Virus record (IMG/VR): IMGVR_UViG_3300023176_005024
Location: 1-26,597 of that record
DNA: 26,597 nt
Origin: a virus
Reading direction: 5' to 3' (one strand)
Each line of letters starts with the position of its first letter. Within the stretch, counting starts at the first letter, position 1. The position numbers were made by a program, and so were the translations under genes. The notes under the pieces were generated by a model. That model was not told where the DNA came from and ran no database searches. It saw only the letters and a program-made list of their open reading frames with translations. Shown one piece after another: positions 2,453 through 21,761 of the stretch.

Positions 2453-3415
2453 ATGGCGATTTCAGTAACTCAACTAGATGCAATTACGCATCGATTTGTT
2501 GAAAAGAAAATGACTGACAACGTATATAGATCAAAAGCGTTGTTAACTAAATTATACGAAATGAGAGTAAAGCTAGACGGTGGATCAAGCTTAAATCACC
2601 CTGTTATCAGTGGCGACATTGACAGCACCACAGGGGGCTGGTTTTCTGGCGCTGAGACACTAGACGATGCTGAAAAAGATGACCTGACCAATGTAGTTTT
2701 ACAATGGAAAGAGATTTACGAAACTGTGTTACTATCTCAGTCAGACATTTTGAAAAACAATGGTATTAAGCAAATCTTAAACCTTGTTTCTTCAAAAGTT
2801 AAAATTGCAGAAAAAAGAATGCAATCAAGAATCTCTGACGGGGTTTTTTCTGATGGGACAAACACTAAAGTGTTTAACGGTCTTGAGGAAATTGTTGACG
2901 CGACAGGTGCCTATGGTGGTCTTACGATCTCTGATATTACTGACGAGGACGGAAACAACTCTTGGCTTGCAAAAATAGACGGAAACTCTGGAACTGACAG
3001 AGCACTTTCTTTAGCACTTATTCAAAAAGTAATGGGTGATGCGACGGAAGGCGCTGACAAGCCGGATTGTGCGGTTTCAAGACAAGACGTTTTCAATGAA
3101 CTATGGAACCTTCTTAGTCCACATCAAAGAACGGTTGAGTCTGACACTTTCAGCGGTCTAGGTCACAAAGGTGTTTTAAGATTCAACGGGATTGATTTTC
3201 TAGTTGATTCTCACGCGGCCGCAAATAAAATGTACTTCTTGAACACAGATTACTTAAAGCTTTACGTTCATCAAGGTCAAGACATGAAAGTTCAATCTTT
3301 CAGTCAACTTGAAGATAAAAACGCTATTAAGAAACGTGTGCTTCTTATGGGTAACCTTCTTTGCTCTGCAAGAAGATTCCAAGGCGCAATTGAAGATATT
3401 TCAGTAGCTAGCTAA
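2453..3415 (+). CDS. Major capsid protein
   Basis: This 320-residue protein would form the icosahedral shell. It follows the scaffold by 12 nt and has the strongest Shine-Dalgarno seen here (AAAGGAG), as expected for the most abundant virion protein. Features that match HK97-fold coat proteins of podoviruses are an N-terminal helical arm, a GG-W-SGAETL loop (about 62-70), a long helix (about 95-125) that would be the spine, and a C-terminal run with an LVDSHAA strand (about 250). There is no prohead protease gene nearby and no obvious cleaved delta domain. I infer the fold from general pattern only. Confidence 0.85.
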   Translation: MAISVTQLDAITHRFVEKKMTDNVYRSKALLTKLYEMRVKLDGGSSLNHPVISGDIDSTTGGWFSGAETLDDAEKDDLTNVVLQWKEIYETVLLSQSDILKNNGIKQILNLVSSKVKIAEKRMQSRISDGVFSDGTNTKVFNGLEEIVDATGAYGGLTISDITDEDGNNSWLAKIDGNSGTDRALSLALIQKVMGDATEGADKPDCAVSRQDVFNELWNLLSPHQRTVESDTFSGLGHKGVLRFNGIDFLVDSHAAANKMYFLNTDYLKLYVHQGQDMKVQSFSQLEDKNAIKKRVLLMGNLLCSARRFQGAIEDISVAS

Positions 3416-3439
3416 ATAGTTTTTTAAAGGAGATTTGAA

Positions 3440-3931
3440 ATGAAATTTTTAGTATTTGTTTTAGCAATGGTTTTCGCTTTTGAAACTTTTGCAAATGCCT
3501 TTGGTCACAACTCTTTTGATGGGACAGGGGCCGTTAAATCTAGATCTAAGGATTATAGATTTTATAAAAACTCTGCAAGCTCGGCTTTCGCAGAGGGAAA
3601 TGTTATTTGTGCCGACTTAACAGATGACGACGGAATCAGTGCTGATTTTTGTGCATCTGAAGGTGACGATGCTGCACTAGGTATGGTTGACGAGGCGTGT
3701 GCTGTGGGTGATATGTGTAAAGTTCTAGTTGAAGGGTTTACAGATAAACTTACTTACGACGGCTCTGGCGACTCTGCAAGTGCGGGTGACGCTCTTTACG
3801 CTGATATTAACGGGAAGGCCGCCGGGGTAACCGTTGACACTACTGCGGAAGCAGCTTACAAGAAAATCGGCTTTATTTATGATGCTGCATCTACTTCGGT
3901 AGACGTTGAGGCATATATTAGAGTCAAATGA
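3440..3931 (+). CDS. Head decoration-like protein with Sec signal peptide
   Basis: The protein has 163 residues and directly follows the capsid gene with a strong AAAGGAG site. The mature part resembles small capsid-decoration or DUF2190-type proteins: beta-rich, Gly/Ala/Asp-rich, with a SAGDALYADINGKA segment (about 115-128) and a final beta strand. Unusually, residues 1-20 form a textbook Sec signal peptide: one Lys, a hydrophobic core and ANA before residue 21, a signal peptidase I site. The mature chain has four cysteines, an even number, consistent with two disulfides formed in the periplasm. The gene overlaps the next one by ATGA, so the two are translationally coupled. Its virion role is inferred from position and similarity of pattern; export is inferred from the signal peptide. 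Confidence 0.7.
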   Translation: MKFLVFVLAMVFAFETFANAFGHNSFDGTGAVKSRSKDYRFYKNSASSAFAEGNVICADLTDDDGISADFCASEGDDAALGMVDEACAVGDMCKVLVEGFTDKLTYDGSGDSASAGDALYADINGKAAGVTVDTTAEAAYKKIGFIYDAASTSVDVEAYIRVK

Positions 3932-5034
3932 TTGGTTTTTTAATCGGGGGGCTGTTTATAACAGCCTCCTTTTTTCTCAAGTTCTCGTTTCCAATTGATA
4001 TAAGATCCGGCCATCACATGTGGTTTTCCTTGTTTTCTTTTGTGATCATTCTCATAACAGGAAAGCCTAGCAAGAAATCATGGCCATTAGTTTATTTTTT
4101 ATTTGCGAGCTTTTTAATACCGAGTAATTTCTATAACGGATATACTTTTTTACAGTGGTTACCTCAAAGTTTAGCGGTTATTCTTTATTTAAAGTTGGAA
4201 AATATTACATTAGACAGAAAATTTTTAGAAAAGCTTTTCGCCTATTGTTGCCTAGTTCAGGCAGCGTGGGTTTTGGTTGATAAAGCAGGCTTTGACATAT
4301 ATGGCACAATTTTGGGCTCGGTCTTTGATGGCGTTCAAAAGACTACAAAAGCGGGCGTTCCATGGAATGAAAAAGCGGTGACGGGAAGCCTAGGACACCC
4401 TACTTTGTCCGGTGCGTATATGGGAATACTTTTACCATTTGTTTATAGATTGAAAAAATATCTTATCTTTTTACCCATACTGGCTATCCATTACACACAA
4501 AGCTCTATGGCGGCATTGACCGCCTACGTAGTTATCTTGTATATTGCAACCTATGATAGCAGATTTAAGTACCACCTATTCTTTTGCCATTGTGTGGCCC
4601 TTGCTCTACTGCTTCACCATGGGAACACACACGGAGGCTTTTTTAGCGACTCGGCCAGGCTTGAGTTTTGGCGAGTGGCACTAGCTAAGCATGGTTTGGC
4701 ATCCCCTGTTTTTGGAAACGGGCCGGGTTTCATTGAAATTGCGGGCGTCCAGTTGTCAAAAAACAGCGAGGTTCTTAGACCCGAACACAACGAAATATTA
4801 ACACTTTACTTTCAATACGGACTCATCGGCATAGCGATACTTATCTATATAATTCGCCTTAAAGTGGTAGAATTTTACAAGGAAAAAGACGTTTATTTTA
4901 AAGGTGCTTTAGTGGGTCTAGTGTTTAACTCTTTGGGTAATTTCCCTTTGCATATAGCATCTACGGGAACTATTTTTATAATACTAGTTTCACAACTTAA
5001 TAAGGAGAAAAAGCATGGCGGCATCAGTTTCTAA
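3928..5034 (+). CDS. O-antigen ligase/polymerase family membrane protein (WaaL/Wzy/PglL-like)
   Basis: This 368-residue protein has about ten hydrophobic segments and belongs by pattern to the Wzy_C superfamily. A large periplasmic loop holds SARLEFWRVAL, then a P-FGNGPGF stretch, then HN-X9-G-X-X-G at H287-G301, the motif known from WaaL ligases and shared with PglL-type protein O-oligosaccharyltransferases. Members move undecaprenyl-linked glycans onto lipid A, another glycan, or periplasmic proteins. Here it sits inside the head operon: its ATG overlaps the stop of the exported decoration protein, and its end overlaps the next head gene by 20 nt, whose AAGGAG site lies inside it. It may change host O-antigen to block superinfection, or act on the coupled exported protein. 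The substrate cannot be told from sequence. Confidence 0.82.
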   Translation: MIGFLIGGLFITASFFLKFSFPIDIRSGHHMWFSLFSFVIILITGKPSKKSWPLVYFLFASFLIPSNFYNGYTFLQWLPQSLAVILYLKLENITLDRKFLEKLFAYCCLVQAAWVLVDKAGFDIYGTILGSVFDGVQKTTKAGVPWNEKAVTGSLGHPTLSGAYMGILLPFVYRLKKYLIFLPILAIHYTQSSMAALTAYVVILYIATYDSRFKYHLFFCHCVALALLLHHGNTHGGFFSDSARLEFWRVALAKHGLASPVFGNGPGFIEIAGVQLSKNSEVLRPEHNEILTLYFQYGLIGIAILIYIIRLKVVEFYKEKDVYFKGALVGLVFNSLGNFPLHIASTGTIFIILVSQLNKEKKHGGISF

Positions 5035-5290
5035 AAAACAAGAGATCGATTTTGGTAACGTAAGGGGAGCGATTTTTGAAATCACTATGACAGGCGTTAC
5101 AGAGTACGACTTTACAGAAAATGACCACGGATTCAGAAACATTTTACACGTTGATTTTAACAATGAAACCAGCGAGGCGGACGGGCTAGTTCAAAAAAAC
5201 ACGCTAGCGGCTGGCGCTACAATAGGCGGTATTTACCTAAGTGGTTTTACTGCGGCTGACGTAGTTTCCATTTTTGTTATAGGTAACTAA
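5015..5290 (+). CDS. Small virion-associated protein (unknown)
   Basis: This 91-residue, beta-rich protein is translated from an AAGGAG site that lies within the end of the membrane-protein gene. It has no signal peptide, no cysteine and no recognised motif. Its place between capsid/decoration genes and the head-tail adaptor, and its soluble Gly/Ala-rich beta pattern with a hydrophobic last strand (VVSIFVIGN), suggest a small head protein. Its stop codon shares a base with the next start (TAATG), showing tight coupling to the adaptor. The function is otherwise unknown. Confidence 0.6.
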   Translation: MAASVSKKQEIDFGNVRGAIFEITMTGVTEYDFTENDHGFRNILHVDFNNETSEADGLVQKNTLAAGATIGGIYLSGFTAADVVSIFVIGN

Positions 5291-8201: not shown

Positions 8202-9200
8202 ATGAAAAACTTTTTCTATTTATCACTTACAGCACTTTACCTAGTGTTCGTTTGCTTGTTTACAAGCGCCTATGCTGGGACGTGTACTAGTATTTCACGA
8301 ACAAACTCTGGGGCGAACACAGTTTTAACGTCGACTAAATACAATGCTGACTTAAACACTGTTTACTCTCACGCAAACGACCTAGACGGCGGGTGTATAA
8401 CCGACGGAACACTTGAGGCCGCAGCGCTAAACTCTTCTGAATTCGCGTTTTTAAACAAGGGCATCCACCAAGGCTGCAAGGTTACAAAATCAAATGACTC
8501 GACCATTTCAATTGATCGATGTCATTTATCAGTAAACGGGAACTTTGTCTCAACAACAAGCGCAACGACTGAAAGTTTTGGTTGCTCGGGTTGTTCGACA
8601 GAAACCTCTTCAACCGCTTATTATGTTTATGCAAAATCTGATTCCGACGGGTCGACTATAAATGTCTTACTACTAACAAGTGCCCCTAATGCTGACGGTT
8701 TTGATGGGTCAAGCAATAGGGTTCTGGCAAGGTTTTACAACAACTCGTCCAGCAATATAGATTCCTACTCTATTGATCAGTGGGCTATTAATGAGTTTAA
8801 AAGAAGCAAGAGCGCTTTGGTGTCCTACACGCCAACCGTGACCGGCCTTGGAACCGCAGCCAATGTTTCGTTTTCTTGGCAAAGGGATGGTAAAAACATG
8901 ATCGTAAGGGGCCGCTTGGACGCTGGCACCCCCTCGGCTGCGGCCATGACGCTAACACTCCCCTCTGGCTACACAATAGACGACTCCGACTCTGGCAGCG
9001 TGGGTGCGATATACGGGGTGGGCTCAACGGACAACGCGGGCGCAAACGCAATTGGCGTTTACGGCCTCGACAATGGGAGCATTGTAACGCTAAGAAACAT
9101 GGTCGGTGATTTTTCGGCTACCTTTAACGGTAGTTCGGCCGTTAACGCTGGCGAAACCATTTTTATAAACTTTACCGTTCCTATAGACGGGTGGAATTAA
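8202..9200 (+). CDS. Tail fibre / receptor-binding protein with Sec signal peptide and mosaic C-terminus
   Basis: This 332-residue protein sits where podoviruses encode their fibre. Residues 1-25 are a clear signal peptide (basic N-terminus, long hydrophobic core, AYA before G26). The next stretch, about 26-60, matches the common fibre N-terminal pattern (ISRT, LTSTKYNADLNTVYSHANDLDGG), which normally begins a cytoplasmic protein. Six cysteines follow in residues 26-135 (C28 plus five more) and none later. The last 130 residues (YTPTVTGLGTAANVSFSW to FTVPIDGWN) are a widespread fibre-tip domain and are much richer in G+C: about 57% over 8881-9120 against about 43% over 8281-8400. The AAGGAT site gives the start. 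Confidence 0.75.
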   Translation: MKNFFYLSLTALYLVFVCLFTSAYAGTCTSISRTNSGANTVLTSTKYNADLNTVYSHANDLDGGCITDGTLEAAALNSSEFAFLNKGIHQGCKVTKSNDSTISIDRCHLSVNGNFVSTTSATTESFGCSGCSTETSSTAYYVYAKSDSDGSTINVLLLTSAPNADGFDGSSNRVLARFYNNSSSNIDSYSIDQWAINEFKRSKSALVSYTPTVTGLGTAANVSFSWQRDGKNMIVRGRLDAGTPSAAAMTLTLPSGYTIDDSDSGSVGAIYGVGSTDNAGANAIGVYGLDNGSIVTLRNMVGDFSATFNGSSAVNAGETIFINFTVPIDGWN

Positions 9201-9571
9201 TGAGTTTGATTGAGAGATATTTCAAAGAAAGAGAAGGTGAAGAAACTATCTATTTCGAAAAAAAAGGGTTTATGATGTATAAAATAGAAGCCCTAAAAGA
9301 CGACGAGCATTCATTTAATGGTCTAGCCTGTATCATCACGGCCACCTACGTACTCCCGCAATTTAGGACTGGTAAGATATCGCACAAACTTGCACTACAC
9401 GTTGAAAAAATAGCAAAAGCCAGAGGTGTTAAGCAGATCTTTTGCCAGAGCGACGAAAACTCGAACGGGTGGTCAATAGCGCATAACAATATATTAAAAT
9501 ATGGATTTAGGGAGTATGACTCGGAAGATACCCCTAAAAATATCCACAACTATCATAAAGAGGTGTTTTAA
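9200..9571 (+). CDS. GNAT-like acetyltransferase family protein in the virion operon
   Basis: The 123-residue protein (taking the ATG that overlaps the previous stop as TAATG; a GTG nine bases earlier has no usable ribosome site) has the GNAT pattern. A central strand ATYVLPQFRTGKISHKLALHVEKIAKARGVKQIFCQ (about 50-85) corresponds to the V-pyrophosphate loop-helix, and a late NILKYGFREYDSE resembles the final strand. GNAT-like proteins occur in the tail/ejection cluster of many podoviruses, where the substrate is unknown. The loop has RTGKIS rather than the usual QxxGxG, so acetyl-CoA binding may be weak or lost and the role may be structural. Confidence 0.65.
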   Translation: MSLIERYFKEREGEETIYFEKKGFMMYKIEALKDDEHSFNGLACIITATYVLPQFRTGKISHKLALHVEKIAKARGVKQIFCQSDENSNGWSIAHNNILKYGFREYDSEDTPKNIHNYHKEVF

Positions 9572-10155
9572 TGGGCGGTGCAATAAAAAAAGTCGCAAAA
9601 AAGGTTGTGAAGCCAATAGGTGGCTTGCTCTTTGGTAAAAAACAAAGCGACATTGGCCCAGATCCAATGAGTCACGACATAAGAAGGGTTCACGGAAAAG
9701 CCTTAAAAGCTCAAGAGGGCATTCTCAAAGACATTAAAGGAATCGATCCAAGTGACTTGGCGAAAAAGGCGACTGAAAGAGAGGCTAAGTTCTTAAGGGG
9801 TGCCGCAAAAGATCAAAGGCGAAGGCTTCAAGAAAATATTGCACGAAAAGGCTTGGGGAGATCTTCGCTTGCTTTAACGGCTGGGTCAGACATCGACAGG
9901 CAGCTTGGAGAGAGAATAGCATCTTCGCAAGCTCAAATTCCAATGAGGCGACTAGGTGCGATTCAGGGCAAGGCGGGAATCATTCAACCTATAGCATCTG
10001 GGACACGCTTTCCGGTTCAAATGAGAGCTATAAAACGAGGTAAAAAAGGCGGCATTTCAGGCCTACTAGGCGCTGGAATCGGTGGCATGGTCGGTGGGCC
10101 TCAAGGTGCTGCGGCCGGAATGCAAATAGGCGAAGGCCTTAAGTCGGTGTTTTAA
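9571..10155 (+). CDS. Internal virion (ejection) protein, glycine-zipper C-terminus
   Basis: The 194-residue protein is basic at the N-terminus (IKKVAKKVVKPIGGLLFGKK), alpha-helical and charged in the middle (residues 40-130), and ends in a glycine-zipper segment (GGISGLLGAGIGGMVGGPQG, about 163-182) that can insert in membranes. This is the layout of small podovirus ejection proteins (T7 gp14 / P22 gp7 type), which leave the virion with the DNA and build a channel across the cell envelope. It lies in the expected place, with TAATG overlaps at both ends showing translational coupling. Assigned by pattern and position. Confidence 0.72.
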   Translation: MGGAIKKVAKKVVKPIGGLLFGKKQSDIGPDPMSHDIRRVHGKALKAQEGILKDIKGIDPSDLAKKATEREAKFLRGAAKDQRRRLQENIARKGLGRSSLALTAGSDIDRQLGERIASSQAQIPMRRLGAIQGKAGIIQPIASGTRFPVQMRAIKRGKKGGISGLLGAGIGGMVGGPQGAAAGMQIGEGLKSVF

Positions 10156-14208: not shown

Positions 14209-14448
14209 ATGAAGTGTTTCATCATGCTTTTAATTTGTTTAACTTTTGTTGCCTGTGACAAGGAACCGGATTTACCGACAGGGGCGAACCCTGAATATTT
14301 TGCAAAATGCGTAAGTAATGAAGAGGCCGCAGCCCTTGGGTTTGAAAAAAAGTGTTCACCGCCCGGCTGTGTTTGCTTACAAGACGTTCACGGAGAGGAA
14401 CCGAGGCTTGAGGCCCATTGTCATTCAAACGCCTTAAAATGTAACTAA
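14209..14448 (+). CDS. Cysteine-rich predicted lipoprotein
   Basis: This 79-residue protein has a short basic start, a hydrophobic run and a lipobox-like FVAC at residues 13-16, so the mature N-terminus would be lipidated C16. Asp at +2 would favour inner-membrane retention under the enterobacterial rule. The mature part has six further cysteines (an even number), including KKCSPPGCVCLQD, suggesting a small disulfide-stapled periplasmic domain. The ribosome site is AAGGAAGG. It could be an o-spanin-like or superinfection-exclusion lipoprotein; most o-spanins are Pro-rich rather than Cys-rich, so this is unsure. Confidence 0.65.
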   Translation: MKCFIMLLICLTFVACDKEPDLPTGANPEYFAKCVSNEEAAALGFEKKCSPPGCVCLQDVHGEEPRLEAHCHSNALKCN

Positions 14449-14990: not shown

Positions 14991-15019
14991 GGGCTCACTT
15001 AACGTGGGCCCAAGTTTTT
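14991..15019 (+). terminator. Rho-independent terminator of the virion operon
   Basis: GGGCTCAC (14991-14998) pairs with GTGGGCCC (15004-15011) around a TTAAC loop, giving 8 bp with one G-U, followed by AA and GTTTTT. It acts on rightward transcripts. The same bases encode the last residues and stop codon of the homing endonuclease on the other strand. Confidence 0.88.
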
Positions 15020-15495
15020 CTCAACACAATGTGACTTATATTTGACTGGGTAACGCCAAAATATATGGCTAAGTCTTTTTGACTGTAACCACTTGAGGCC
15101 ATTTTCCTGATAAGTATTATGCGGTTTTCATTAAGCCTTGAGAAGTGATGCTTAGAGCCATTTTTTATAAGACCAATAGAATAGGCGTGTTTCCTGTTTT
15201 CCCCGGGGGTACACCATTCGAGATTCTTTAATCGACTGTCTGATTTTATGCCGTTAATATGATTAACTTCTCGCTTTCCTTTAGGGTTGGGGATAAACGA
15301 CATCGCTACAAGCCTGTGTATTCTTTCCGTTTTCCGCTTTCCGTCCTTCTTTAAATTAATGGCCATATAGCCAAGGCTATCAACAAACGGCTTTAAAATA
15401 CAATCACGGTCTGAAATTGATTTTATTCTCCCTAAATCGCTTATCTTGTATAACCCCTCATAACCCCTAGTGTCTTTCCATTTTTCTTTTCCCAT
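14995..15495 (-). CDS. NUMOD4/HNH homing endonuclease
   Basis: The 166-residue protein has the three usual parts of a phage HNH homing endonuclease: an N-terminal NUMOD4 motif (EKWKD--GYEGLYKISDLGRIKS, about 3-25), an HNH core (RLVAMSFIPNPKGK-EVNHINGIKSDSR-KNLEW, about 60-94, with the N-H pair as part of the metal site), and a C-terminal DNA-binding helix-turn-helix (GYSQKDLAIYFGVTQSNIS, about 135-153). Such genes spread by cutting alleles that lack them. It is transcribed against its neighbours and fills the gap between a terminator and the next gene. It lacks a Shine-Dalgarno; TATACA lies 6 nt before its ATG. Confidence 0.9.
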   Translation of the reverse strand: MGKEKWKDTRGYEGLYKISDLGRIKSISDRDCILKPFVDSLGYMAINLKKDGKRKTERIHRLVAMSFIPNPKGKREVNHINGIKSDSRLKNLEWCTPGENRKHAYSIGLIKNGSKHHFSRLNENRIILIRKMASSGYSQKDLAIYFGVTQSNISHIVLRKTWAHVK

Positions 15496-15518: not shown

Positions 15519-15758
15519 ATGCAATTAAAAATCTTATTACAAGCTATTATAGCCGTCCCTACGCTCCTTAAGGAAATTAAGGAGACAGGGGCGCTTATAG
15601 CTGGGGCCATTGATAAACTCCGAAATCAAATGACCGATAAATACATAGGTGAGTTAAAAGGCGATATCGAAAAAACCTTAAAGAAAATCAAAGGAACTAA
15701 AGACGATGACGAGCTTAAAAAACTTCTTGCTGATCTTAGCGATTATCTTAATAAGTAA
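15519..15758 (+). CDS. Small helical protein, possible inner-membrane spanin/lysis partner
   Basis: The ATG at 15519 is preferred over one at 15501, which lies on the likely -10 box. The 79-residue product has a moderately hydrophobic first 20 residues (LKILLQAIIAVPTLL), a small Gly/Ala segment, then a charged coiled-coil-like part (about 38-78). The start of a lipoprotein gene lies inside its 3' end in another frame, an arrangement like Rz/Rz1 spanin pairs. The first segment is short for a membrane span and contains a proline, so membrane insertion is uncertain. Confidence 0.55.
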   Translation: MQLKILLQAIIAVPTLLKEIKETGALIAGAIDKLRNQMTDKYIGELKGDIEKTLKKIKGTKDDDELKKLLADLSDYLNK

Positions 15759-15984
15759 TAGTTGTAAGGACGGACATAAACCGCCTTCTTTAAAGGTTTG
15801 TGCAACGGCAAACACCGTCGGATTTTTATGTAATGACGAAAGCAAACCAGAGGGCGAGCAAGACAGCTTCGAACCTTACAGGTCTGGATATATTTGTTTT
15901 GACCAACCAGATTTTTCTCAATTATATAGCTATTGTGCTGACCTTAGAAAAGATCTTATCAAGTGTGAAAGAAAGTGCGACTAG
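15706..15984 (+). CDS. Cysteine-rich predicted lipoprotein overlapping the upstream gene
   Basis: The 92-residue protein has a signal sequence (residues 5-19) ending SNSC with C20 as the likely lipidated residue; the -3/-2 residues are not the classical lipobox, so lipidation is likely but not certain. The mature part has six more cysteines (even number) and ends with KCERKCD. The gene starts 53 nt inside the previous gene in a different frame, with AAGGA ten bases before the ATG. The overlap resembles Rz1 o-spanins, though the Cys-rich, Pro-poor composition does not. Confidence 0.65.
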   Translation: MTSLKNFLLILAIILISNSCKDGHKPPSLKVCATANTVGFLCNDESKPEGEQDSFEPYRSGYICFDQPDFSQLYSYCADLRKDLIKCERKCD

Positions 15985-16019: not shown

Positions 16020-16634
16020 TTATATGTATTGTTGTGGGTACTCTGAATCCCAGACCGTAATTAAATTTTTACATTTATAGATTCCCTCTGGCGACAAGTA
16101 AGGCCTTCCCATTCCAACTAAGTCGCTTAAATCAAAATCAAGGGTTTTCAAATAGTCTGAGTGATAAACAAGCTCACTACAGTATAGCGCCTCTATTCCA
16201 AGGGAAAACTCAACGTCATATTTTGCATTAGACATGCTCAAGCATTTTTGAATAACGTCTAGCTTATAGGTCTCGCTCCAATCTTTTGCCCTTAATATAA
16301 CTACTCGAGTGCTTTCTTTGCAGATATCGAAAAAGGTCGATCGCCTGTAATTGTCATGGGTCATTTCCGCAAACTCGAAAACCTCATTTTTTGAAACACA
16401 AAAAGCCGCATGTGAAAACTCCCCACCTATTAAAAGACTTGTCAGTTTTTTGTTATCGATTGTTAAAACTATGTCAGAGGGGCGTAAAATCTTATATCCC
16501 TCATAAAAAAGCTGACCTTTAAAGTCTGGATAATAAGTTGTAAATCTAATATATGGAATCCAATCTTTTAAAGCCTTTTTATAAAGACTTGTAGACATAA
16601 GCCATAAAATTAATTTCGTTTTTAGTTTTCTCAT
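16020..16634 (-). CDS. YiiX/NlpC-P60-like permuted cysteine hydrolase
   Basis: Starting at the ATG behind a TATAAT box, the 204-residue protein shows the circularly permuted papain-like (DUF830/YiiX) pattern: SDIVLTIDN (about 53-61), GGEFSHAAFCV with the catalytic-type H75, VFEFAE (about 85-90), and ALYCSELVYHSDY with the nucleophile C152. Known relatives cleave amide bonds in peptidoglycan or lipids/acylated proteins. Residues 3-20 are basic and partly hydrophobic and could touch the membrane, but this is no clean signal peptide. It lies on the opposite strand between a rightward lipoprotein gene and that transcript's terminator, with its own leaderless promoter. It may be an accessory (moron) gene, or act in lysis or envelope change. 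Confidence 0.8.
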   Translation of the reverse strand: MRKLKTKLILWLMSTSLYKKALKDWIPYIRFTTYYPDFKGQLFYEGYKILRPSDIVLTIDNKKLTSLLIGGEFSHAAFCVSKNEVFEFAEMTHDNYRRSTFFDICKESTRVVILRAKDWSETYKLDVIQKCLSMSNAKYDVEFSLGIEALYCSELVYHSDYLKTLDFDLSDLVGMGRPYLSPEGIYKCKNLITVWDSEYPQQYI

Positions 16635-16640
16635 ATTGCA

Positions 16641-16646
16641 ATTATA
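16641..16646 (-). promoter_or_regulatory. -10 box (TATAAT) of a leaderless promoter for the YiiX-like gene
   Basis: On the minus strand TATAAT is followed by exactly 6 nt (TGCAAT) and the ATG at 16634, with no Shine-Dalgarno. The expected start site is the A of the ATG or next to it. A -35 match is poor (ACTTTA at 18-bp spacing). Confidence 0.55.
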
Positions 16647-16715
16647 TCGAAATACCACTAATATTAAAGTCTCTACTATAACAGTTTTCATTTTTGTTGT
16701 TTTTTCATTGTTTAG

Positions 16716-17045: not shown

Positions 17046-17759
17046 ATGTTTAAATCAATCTTAGTTATTCCAGACCTACACTGTCCGGTCATGCATAAAG
17101 ATGCGTTTAAATTTATTAAGGCCGTAGCTAAGTTGTATAAGCCGGATAAAGTAGTTTGCTTAGGTGACGAGCTAGACTATCACTGTTTAAGCTTTCACGA
17201 AACAGAGGATGAGTGCCCATACAATGAAAGCCAAGAATTTGAAGAGGGTAAGAGATATTTTTCTAATCTTTACGATATGTTTGACAGCGTCGATATTCTT
17301 ACCTCAAATCATGGCAGCCTCTTATATCGTCGTGCTAAGGCGTGTCGAATCCCAAGACAGTTCCTCTTTACCTACGAGCAAGTATTAGACGCGCCAAAAG
17401 GTTATAAATGGCACGATAACTTAATACTTCAAACCAATAGAGGCGAGTTCGTGCAATTTCACCACGGAAATATCGCGCCTAAAGATATTCTTCGAAAGTC
17501 TCAACTTACAGGTATAAGTCAAGTTCAAGGCCACCATCACAACAATTTCGAAATCAAATACTGGCAAGACAACGTAACAAATAAAATGAAATTTGGGATG
17601 TCATGCGGTTGTTTAATAGACGATGAGAAATACGCCTTTCTTTATAATAAAAATAATATTGGAAGGCCCTTACTTGGTTGTGGCGTAATTTATGACGGTA
17701 TTCCCGAGCTTATACCGATGAATTTAAACGAGGAAAAAAGATGGGATGGGTGTTTATAG
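17046..17759 (+). CDS. Calcineurin-like metallophosphoesterase
   Basis: The 237-residue protein has the ordered metal-binding motifs of the family: D10-x-H12 (VIPDLHCP), G40-D41 (CLGDELDYH), N88-H89 (TSNHG), H139/H140 (FHHGN) and G162-H-H (QGHHHN). These bind two metals and hydrolyse phosphomono- or diesters. Phages carry such enzymes for nucleic-acid end processing, nucleotide turnover or signalling; the substrate cannot be told. There is no signal peptide, so it should be cytoplasmic. It has nine cysteines, which in this reducing location are unlikely to be disulfides. The next lipoprotein gene begins inside its last codons. Confidence 0.9.
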   Translation: MFKSILVIPDLHCPVMHKDAFKFIKAVAKLYKPDKVVCLGDELDYHCLSFHETEDECPYNESQEFEEGKRYFSNLYDMFDSVDILTSNHGSLLYRRAKACRIPRQFLFTYEQVLDAPKGYKWHDNLILQTNRGEFVQFHHGNIAPKDILRKSQLTGISQVQGHHHNNFEIKYWQDNVTNKMKFGMSCGCLIDDEKYAFLYNKNNIGRPLLGCGVIYDGIPELIPMNLNEEKRWDGCL

Positions 17760-17944
17760 TTTTACTTCTCACCTCTTGCGTTGACGAAAAAGGAAACCCT
17801 ATTCCTTTAGAGTTTTATAGCTCTGACGATGAATGCTTAGTTTCGGAGCATTACAAGTCTAATGATGTTTACTTTTCAATATGTCATCTTAAAAATAGAT
17901 CGGTTTATGATAGCGATATTCCCGAAAAGGTCATTGAGTTTTAA
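17741..17944 (+). CDS. Small predicted lipoprotein
   Basis: The 67-residue protein has a very short signal (residues 2-9 hydrophobic) with a classical lipobox LTSC, lipidated C13. The mature part has two cysteines. Its ATG lies 19 nt before the end of the phosphoesterase gene, with GAGGAAAAAAG as ribosome site. Its 3' end overlaps the convergent zincin gene by 14 nt. It is a candidate o-spanin or surface-exclusion lipoprotein; no family is recognised. Confidence 0.68.
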   Translation: MGWVFIVLLLTSCVDEKGNPIPLEFYSSDDECLVSEHYKSNDVYFSICHLKNRSVYDSDIPEKVIEF

Positions 17945-18305: not shown

Positions 18306-18527
18306 TCAGTGAATCAAGTAATTTTGATCCTCTATTTCGTTAAACATATAATAAATGATGTCTTGCGTGGCGCGTATATTGGATTTAATATTTAATATTT
18401 CCTCGGCAAGCACTTGAGCGTGGCCATAGCGACCCTTTAAGATCGCCCTTTGATAGTCTAATATTCTTTCGTGTTTTACTTTAATTAAATAGTCTAGCCT
18501 ATCGCTTAGTATTGTATAATAGTTCAT
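18306..18527 (-). CDS. Small helical protein of unknown function
   Basis: A 73-residue protein predicted to be almost wholly alpha-helical (two long helices, about 3-30 and 35-66), with R/K/D/E-rich surfaces and no cysteine. The ATG overlaps the HNH gene's stop as ATGA and there is no good ribosome site, so it is probably made by translational coupling. Similar short helical-pair proteins are common in early phage operons; no function can be given. Confidence 0.5.
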   Translation of the reverse strand: MNYYTILSDRLDYLIKVKHERILDYQRAILKGRYGHAQVLAEEILNIKSNIRATQDIIYYMFNEIEDQNYLIH

Positions 18528-18775
18528 TCTTTAACAGTATAAACCCATTTTCCCATTACTAGTTCAAATCCACGGTTTAACATTTCGCTTTCCATTCCAA
18601 ATTTTCTAATAAAAGAAGATCGACCTAGATAATGAATCTCATTATGGTGGGCCCTACAGAGATAAATTAAGTTAAAGGGTGAGTGCTTATATTCAGGGTG
18701 AGACTTTTTAGTTAAAATGTGATGCTCGTCCACAGGGGAGCGCCCACAAATAAAACAATTACTTTTTCGTTCCAT
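18524..18775 (-). CDS. HNH nuclease domain protein
   Basis: The 83-residue protein has CFICG near the N-terminus (C7, C10), VDEHHILTK (H18, H19), FNLIYLC-AHHNEIH (N35, C40, H43, H44), i.e. the beta-beta-alpha metal site of HNH nucleases with a C-x2-C / C-x2-H zinc knuckle. HNH proteins near packaging genes help the terminase cut; this one is far from TerS, in the leftward operon, so a free-standing nuclease or recombination role is equally likely. Its start lies 17 nt inside the end of the amidase gene. Confidence 0.85.
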   Translation of the reverse strand: MERKSNCFICGRSPVDEHHILTKKSHPEYKHSPFNLIYLCRAHHNEIHYLGRSSFIRKFGMESEMLNRGFELVMGKWVYTVKE

Positions 18776-20112: not shown

Positions 20113-20339
20113 TTTTTACGCCTATTTATGTAAACTTCTCGATGCTCTGGCAAAAGCTCTTTGTGTTTCCATTTTTCACAGATTCTTACCCTATCGTCAA
20201 CGCTAAGCATGGGCGAAAAATCAAACCACAAGGCATCAAACCATTCCATGTCTCTATTATTTAACTGGCGGCTTCCTATAGCATAGCGATAGTAGTTGCC
20301 GCCTTTTCTTTTATAGACGTGTATTCTTGCTGAGTTCAT
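20109..20339 (-). CDS. Small basic aromatic protein of unknown function
   Basis: A 76-residue protein, rich in R, K, W and Y (for example YKRKGGNYYRYAIG and MEWFDALWFDF). It is coupled to the lipoprotein gene by TAATG and to the next gene by ATGA. The two aromatic clusters suggest a small beta-sheet nucleic-acid or protein-binding domain, but I recognise no family. Confidence 0.5.
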   Translation of the reverse strand: MNSARIHVYKRKGGNYYRYAIGSRQLNNRDMEWFDALWFDFSPMLSVDDRVRICEKWKHKELLPEHREVYINRRKK

Positions 20340-20752
20340 TAATACGACTCACATTCGTAAGAGGTCACGCCACCGCCAAGGTCGATGCTAGTGCAATTTG
20401 TTTGCGTGGGCGTTTCAATTTGCGGCTCTGGCGCTTGATTTGCCTCGTTGTGTTTTCGCATTGATTCGCCAAACTGATAAAGAGCCTCTTGGTTTCTTGC
20501 TCTTTCTTTGGCATCCATATTCCAGCTTTTGAGCTTTCCCATGCGAAAAGATAAGTAATAGGGAAAGTTCCCTTTCCATGCTTCCCACATTGTGTACTTG
20601 TAAATTAGGTGACCATTTTTAAACTGTGTTTGCTCGGGCTCACCCATTAGGTCGGTAACCTCGTCGATTGTCATATTAGGTCTTAACTGGTTTAGTTCAT
20701 TTGTCCCAATGCTTGCGCATGACACTAAAAATAAAAGAATCAAAATTTTCAT
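20339..20752 (-). CDS. BamE/SmpA-like predicted outer-membrane lipoprotein
   Basis: The ATG at 20752 is chosen because GAGGTG lies just upstream and the product then begins with a proper lipoprotein signal: MKILILLFL and lipobox LVSC, C11 lipidated. The mature part (about 12-75) follows the SmpA/OmlA pattern: LNQLRPNMTIDEVTDLMGEPE, then a strand pair with Y-Y-M-W and LSFRMGKLKSW. The tail is Q/P/E-rich and holds two cysteines near the end. The gene is sandwiched between RecT and small proteins in the leftward operon, so it is likely made early; a role in changing the outer membrane against superinfection is possible. Confidence 0.8.
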   Translation of the reverse strand: MKILILLFLVSCASIGTNELNQLRPNMTIDEVTDLMGEPEQTQFKNGHLIYKYTMWEAWKGNFPYYLSFRMGKLKSWNMDAKERARNQEALYQFGESMRKHNEANQAPEPQIETPTQTNCTSIDLGGGVTSYECESY

Positions 20753-20753
20753 T

Positions 20754-21761
20754 TTACACCTCGCTTTCAAGCTCTGAATAATAGAGATCTCGGTTTTTAA
20801 AAAAGTCATCCATCATTTGATAAGTTTCGTACTTGTCGCCTGTCCTATAGCCCTTTTTATTTGCCTCAACTTTTTCCTGAATACCTAGAAAATAGTCGTA
20901 TAGGTCATCTTCGTCACATTCCTTTATTCTCTTCCCCTTAAACTGTCCCCATATAAACTTGTAATTTAGGCCGGGCTCGCAGTCGTCTTTCTTTCTAATG
21001 TAATCCGCATCAAGGGCCGCCTTTTCTTCAAGTTGCTCTTGTTTTCTTTCCTCGAAATTTATTCCCTCATGTTCGTTAACAACGTCAATCGCCTTCTCTA
21101 ATTGCATTATTTGTGGGGTTCGCGGCCAGAGCTTAGCGGCTCTTTTAACAACGGTTTTCTTTATCATTTCACCTTCGAAATCGACCCAAGGGCCATATCC
21201 TTTTTTATAGGCTTCGCTTCGGTTTCGTATTTCGTAAATCTCATCTATAGACATGGGCGTAGTTAAGTAGTCCCCGTGACAGGTTTTGGCCACCACATAA
21301 GCGCCCACTATTTTCCCCCTGTCCTTACAAAAGGGGTTGTGTTTATGCTCTGGCATTTGTCCGAGATCTAGAACGGTAAACTGATCTTTTTCGTAAACAA
21401 TTGCAGATTGGGCCCATTCAATAGAGCCTGACTCAGTGGCCGCCCTAATTAAACCCTTGTATGAGATATCAAGGCAAACAGACTGTTTTTTATTTACCCT
21501 TCTTGGAACCAAGTAGGCCAGTTGACTGACAGGATTTAAAGTCAGGCCTACAGCCGCTATGTTTATAATTGCATTTTTTAGAGATGCTGGATTTTTTCGG
21601 GCAACGTCTAATAGATAGTCATTGTTTTGAAGCGCTTGAATAGCGAAATGCGCTTCTTGAGCAAATTGAATGCGGTTGTCAGAAAGTGCCGCCTCAAATT
21701 GGTCTTGATATTCTTGCACTACGTCGCTAAGTGTTTTCGCCTTCTCTTGTAGTTGATTCAT
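20754..21761 (-). CDS. recT: RecT-family single-strand annealing protein
   Basis: The 335-residue protein has the RecT hallmark GLTLNPVSQLAYLVPR (residues 72-87), then DISYKGLIRAATESG and IVGAYVVAKT, with a conserved K-V-KRAAKLWP helix (about 205-215). RecT binds single-stranded DNA and anneals complementary strands during phage recombination or concatemer formation. After about residue 245 the protein carries an extra acidic and aromatic tail (about 90 residues) that looks like a separate module. No RecE/YqaJ-type exonuclease is visible in the window. The ribosome site is AGGACGG. Confidence 0.92.
   Translation of the reverse strand: MNQLQEKAKTLSDVVQEYQDQFEAALSDNRIQFAQEAHFAIQALQNNDYLLDVARKNPASLKNAIINIAAVGLTLNPVSQLAYLVPRRVNKKQSVCLDISYKGLIRAATESGSIEWAQSAIVYEKDQFTVLDLGQMPEHKHNPFCKDRGKIVGAYVVAKTCHGDYLTTPMSIDEIYEIRNRSEAYKKGYGPWVDFEGEMIKKTVVKRAAKLWPRTPQIMQLEKAIDVVNEHEGINFEERKQEQLEEKAALDADYIRKKDDCEPGLNYKFIWGQFKGKRIKECDEDDLYDYFLGIQEKVEANKKGYRTGDKYETYQMMDDFFKNRDLYYSELESEV

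Follow-up and report, generated by a model that had tools for sequence, protein, structure and literature searches.

The stretch of viral DNA analysed here, hereafter the window, spans all 26,597 nucleotides of IMG/VR record IMGVR_UViG_3300023176_005024. Among its head genes is a gene for a cement-like protein, which begins after a gap of only 24 bases behind the major capsid gene. The features of the locus are summarized in the table below. The identity of the capsid gene is firm, with a score against NF033394 of 202.6 bits (cut-off 80) and further matches to SU10_MCP (2.5e-5) and PHROG 9953 (2.3e-49), so that the position directly behind the major capsid gene, as described in the first-pass annotation, is well founded. 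A strong Shine-Dalgarno sequence (AAAGGAGA) precedes the ATG at 3440. The next possible start in frame, M10, lacks a Shine-Dalgarno, and no start codon is found between M10 and the conserved body of the protein. ATG 3440 is thus the one credible start, and we regard this assignment as secure; alternative starts were considered and rejected, as none has a Shine-Dalgarno.

Features of the window discussed in the text, with the basis for each assignment
Feature	Position	Strand	Basis
Major capsid protein, podovirus type	2453-3415	+	NF033394 capsid_maj_Podo, SU10_MCP, PHROG 9953
Shine-Dalgarno AAAGGAGA of the cement-like gene	3426-3433	+	Sequence; precedes ATG 3440
Cement-like gene	3440-3931	+	ORF, 163 aa
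Signal peptide, residues 1-20, predicted cleavage between ANA and F	3440-3499	+	Rule-based scan, chance rates, sequence
Mature cement-like protein (predicted), residues 21-163, and stop codon	3500-3931	+	PF09956 over residues 76-157; profile continuum
O-antigen-ligase-like membrane protein (Wzy_C-like)	3928-5034	+	PF04932, coordinates, hydrophobic segments
Intrinsic terminator, 11-bp stem, 3-base loop, T tract	3946-3976	+	Best of region; folding
Signal-peptide protein in tail cluster, fibre-like	8202-9200	+	Signal rule; cysteine count; C-terminal domain likeness

The first 20 residues of the cement-like protein are MKFLVFVLAMVFAFETFANA, followed by FGHNSFDG. They comprise a lysine at position 2, an uncharged hydrophobic core of 12 residues (3-14) and alanines at 18 and 20, which places the sequence A-N-A directly before the phenylalanine at a predicted 20/21 cleavage site. 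The core has a mean Kyte-Doolittle hydropathy of 3.28 over its best 9 residues. The layout expected for Sec and signal peptidase I is thus present, with a positive n-region, an uncharged hydrophobic core and small residues at -3 and -1. A scan was made with a rule that calls for a positive residue, an uncharged hydrophobic core and small residues at -3/-1, or else a lipobox. This rule is passed by 0.2-1.0% of random N-termini and by 5 of 1552 ORFs in related loci. Within the window five ORFs pass, three of which are of lipoprotein type (starting at 14209, 15706 and, on the minus strand, 20342); the only others are the cement-like gene and the fibre-like gene of the tail cluster. Judged by sequence, residues 1-20 have every formal feature of a standard Sec/signal-peptidase-I peptide, and export and cleavage of the protein are very probable. 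The cleavable signal with an ANA site, noted at first pass, is therefore real as a sequence feature.

The hydrophobic start could conceivably instead be an uncleaved arm of a virion protein, or an inefficient signal, in which case the protein would stay in the cytoplasm and decorate heads in the usual way. Relatives function without a signal, and DUF2190-type proteins encoded in bacterial genomes often start with a hydrophobic beta strand, the mean hydropathy of which reaches 3.07 over 9 residues. However, those starts lie within the domain and lack the combination of lysine, uncharged core and AXA, and the full layout is as rare as the scan indicates. Moreover, the KDYRFYKN strand of the window protein aligns with EFIYLKG and KIYKYVKY of relatives; upstream of this strand the relatives carry about 25-40 residues without a signal, whereas the window protein carries the signal peptide and about 16 residues. 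The first strand of the DUF2190 family thus corresponds to residues downstream of the signal, and the idea that the signal is a misread family strand was rejected. The alignment, which is of low identity, suggests that the signal peptide replaces the N-terminal arm of the relatives. An uncleaved arm or inefficient signal seems quite unlikely.

The body of the protein resembles phage cement proteins. The Pfam family Phage_cement_2 (PF09956, formerly DUF2190) matches residues 76-157 with an E-value of 6.9e-5 and a score of 23.6 bits; as this is 0.4 bit below the curated cut-off of 24, no formal membership of the family is claimed. A profile of DUF2190 proteins gave 22 weak matches among 5860 reading frames from the related loci and the window, and 12 of these are capsid-adjacent genes, including those of the window and of Mx8. 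The enrichment corresponds to a hypergeometric probability of 5e-15, calculated for at most 130 capsid-adjacent frames with positions assigned by hand. Single-sequence comparison with hhalign against two capsid-adjacent families gave no support. AlphaFold models of the full and mature chains, built from shallow alignments, reached pLDDT values of 39 and 49 and were unusable; the best Foldseek match of the low-pLDDT model is a DUF2190 protein (E 0.68), which is not used as evidence. The protein returned no match by tblastn against phages and plasmids and no meaningful match by phmmer against the PDB, and five single-protein scans of viral sequences for nearer relatives yielded only contigs of the same population. 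Taken together, the Pfam profile, the gene position and the weak but enriched continuum of profile matches back the likeness to a capsid decoration protein that was recognized at first pass, and the cement relationship can be considered moderately shown.

The occurrence of the signal was surveyed in the capsid-adjacent genes of 80 viral and 24 genome loci selected by capsid similarity, of Mx8 and Mx9 and of other annotated phages, together with about 50 DUF2190-type proteins from 299 genomes, all ORFs of the loci and long stretches of ten related phages. No signal-bearing cement protein was found among the approximately 100 capsid-adjacent genes and 50 DUF2190-type proteins, nor do any virion genes of the ten related phages have such a signal start. 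One protein (L162) passes the rule, but it has a plain DUF2190 start and was set aside. The open-access literature searched gave no precedent for a signal peptide on the decoration protein of a tailed phage. The first-pass annotation had suggested a search for homologues with the same signal beside capsid genes, and had counted homologues lacking the hydrophobic start against its proposal. The homologues do lack it, and so offer no evolutionary confirmation of the trait, which would make it lineage-specific rather than disproved in the window phage. As far as shown within these collections, the cement-like protein would be a lineage-specific, signal-bearing variant of a type of gene that is itself already known.

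The only other copy with the signal is on a contig (L001) of the same population, identical to the window over 8.9 kb. This copy bears on whether a wrong start or a chimeric N-terminus could have created the signal as an artefact of assembly or annotation. The phage is known from metagenome contigs only, but L001, a separate contig, matches the window here at 100% identity, no alternative start has a Shine-Dalgarno, and reading frame and terminator are intact; an artefact is exceedingly improbable. A further contig (L103) is 99.6% identical, the cement-like gene lying outside its coverage. Its differences from the window are concentrated in a 0.6-kb block, with 26 of 28 falling within 9268-9873 on the plus strand (covering a GNAT-like gene and the beginning of the gene after it) and the preceding 4 kb being identical, which suggests recombination.

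The predicted mature chain contains four cysteines, at positions 57, 71, 87 and 93, in agreement with the number given at first pass. Exported-type ORFs of the window have 4, 6, 6, 6, 2 and 2 cysteines in their mature parts beyond any lipid-bearing one, and proteins of the virion cluster without a signal have 0-2 each. Such even numbers fit a periplasmic fate. For the cement-like protein itself, however, the argument is weak, because the positions of C57 and C93 are also cysteine in relatives without a signal (VCTSD in L006, QYCW in L040); another signal-less relative (L023) has a first cysteine pair comparable to that of the window protein.

The fibre-like protein starts with MKNFFYLSLTALYLVFVCLFTSAYAG, followed after the predicted cleavage point by TC; its mature part contains six cysteines. 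It gave no profile match; its C-terminal domain resembles a protein of phage MW202458.1, and its place and composition point to a fibre role. It is possibly a second case of an exported virion part and, though absent from the first-pass annotation, speaks for the proposal made there. Searches with the fibre-like and Wzy_C-like proteins for a host assignment returned nothing. Elsewhere in the window, four small lipoprotein-type ORFs (14209-14448, 15706-15984 and 17741-17944 on the plus strand, 20339-20809 on the minus strand) contain lipobox cysteines, and their remaining cysteines are even in number. Two small minus-strand ORFs (14995-15495 and 18524-18775) appear, from sequence, to be HNH-endonuclease-like, and 16020-16691 on the minus strand encodes an amidase of permuted papain-like type (C92, PF05708, E 7.6e-10), the N-terminus of which is hydrophobic.

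The cement-like gene is followed immediately by a strong terminator, the hairpin of which (3946-3970, followed by the T tract) has a folding energy of -17.8 kcal/mol with a z-score of -4.4. Its position marks the cement-like gene as the last gene of the head transcription unit. The same terminator falls within the opening codons of the Wzy_C-like ORF, the start of which overlaps the stop codon of the cement-like gene (ATGA). This ORF matches PF04932 with an E-value of 2.4e-6 and 27.8 bits, below the cut-off of 31.7, and has no NCBIfam or PDB match. It stands amid the genes of the head cluster, which also includes a small ORF at 5015-5290, and it is absent from the same place in the annotated relatives examined. 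Given the terminator in its first codons, the Wzy_C-like gene may have been inserted later, or else it may depend on translational coupling and read-through for its expression; its product is a possible partner of the cement-like protein.

Such a partnership could take the form of periplasmic glycosylation, in which the exported cement-like protein is modified by the coupled Wzy_C-like protein and joins the virion or the cell surface. Ligases of the PglL/TfpO type modify pilins. The ATGA overlap, the Wzy_C likeness, an H-N...G motif (RPEHNEILTLYFQYGLIG) and stretches rich in A and S in the mature cement-like chain are in keeping with this scheme. It is nonetheless very unlikely, given the sub-threshold Wzy_C score with no NCBIfam or PDB match, and given that the terminator within the start of the Wzy_C-like gene speaks for a separately inserted gene.

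The main rival to head loading at lysis is that a cement gene gained a signal and that its product now serves a function in the periplasm or on the surface, outside the virion, for example in superinfection exclusion or with the Wzy_C-like protein. The signal peptide itself and the translational overlap with an O-antigen-ligase-like gene missing there in annotated relatives fit such repurposing, as does the small ORF at 5015-5290, which has no assigned role; a small head-cluster protein such as this one may then serve as decoration. The head-protein context argues in the other direction, the gene being directly behind the capsid gene with a strong Shine-Dalgarno and a terminator after it, and a second repurposing would be needed for the fibre-like protein. 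We consider repurposed export to be on the unlikely side.

The reading that we prefer is of a head-decoration protein in which a cleavable Sec signal has taken the place of the short arm found at the N-terminus of its relatives. The protein would be made late, together with the capsid protein, exported, cut after residue 20 and folded in the periplasm, and on opening of the inner membrane at lysis it would bind finished heads from outside; the fibre-like protein possibly follows the same route. Both proteins would be expected on the virion exterior, and parts located there can physically be added late. The full chain of export, periplasmic storage and coating of heads at lysis, as proposed at first pass, is given a probability of about 0.4. 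In its favour are the signal with a secure start, the likeness to PF09956, the adjacency to the capsid gene, the profile enrichment and the terminator. Against it, head binding by the relatives presumably takes place in the cytoplasm, and hundreds of copies would need to cross Sec. Presence of the protein in the virion is slightly favoured; loading of heads at lysis, argued purely from the coherence of the scheme, is a tentative step with somewhat less than an even chance. A stronger form, in which the cement-like and fibre-like proteins both travel via Sec, undergo oxidation or some other modification in the periplasm and are added to DNA-filled heads and tails only at lysis, would be unlikely.

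The current view is that virion assembly in tailed phages takes place entirely in the cytoplasm. If a coat protein did pass through Sec, assembly would be split between two compartments, and disulfides or glycans on capsids would become possible. Were the protein instead a repurposed cement protein, it would show head genes turning into genes that act on the envelope.

The window protein is like the PF09956 head decoration proteins in its body residues 76-157 and its position beside the capsid gene, but differs from them in its signal, which is carried by 0 of about 50 members from the 299 genomes. In many viral contigs the gene after the capsid gene is cement-like. The gene order of the Myxococcus phages Mx8 and Mx9 is the same as in the window, with portal, scaffold-like protein, capsid, small structural protein and adaptor, although neither has a Wzy_C gene between the small structural gene and the adaptor. 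Their post-capsid gene is annotated as a (putative) major virion structural protein (AAK94384.1 in Mx8), and its product shares the first-strand motif with the window protein but has a different N-terminal arm and no signal peptide. Filamentous phages are the known example of coat proteins that pass through Sec; their pVIII and pIII are synthesised as Sec preproteins, the signals of which are cleavable. There, however, the virus is assembled at the inner membrane and extruded, and both the proteins and the virion type are unrelated to the present case. Export signals are also used in tailed phages by SAR endolysins and lipoprotein spanins, for example in JG068 (PMC3765740), but these are lysis proteins, unlike the coat-like protein of the window.
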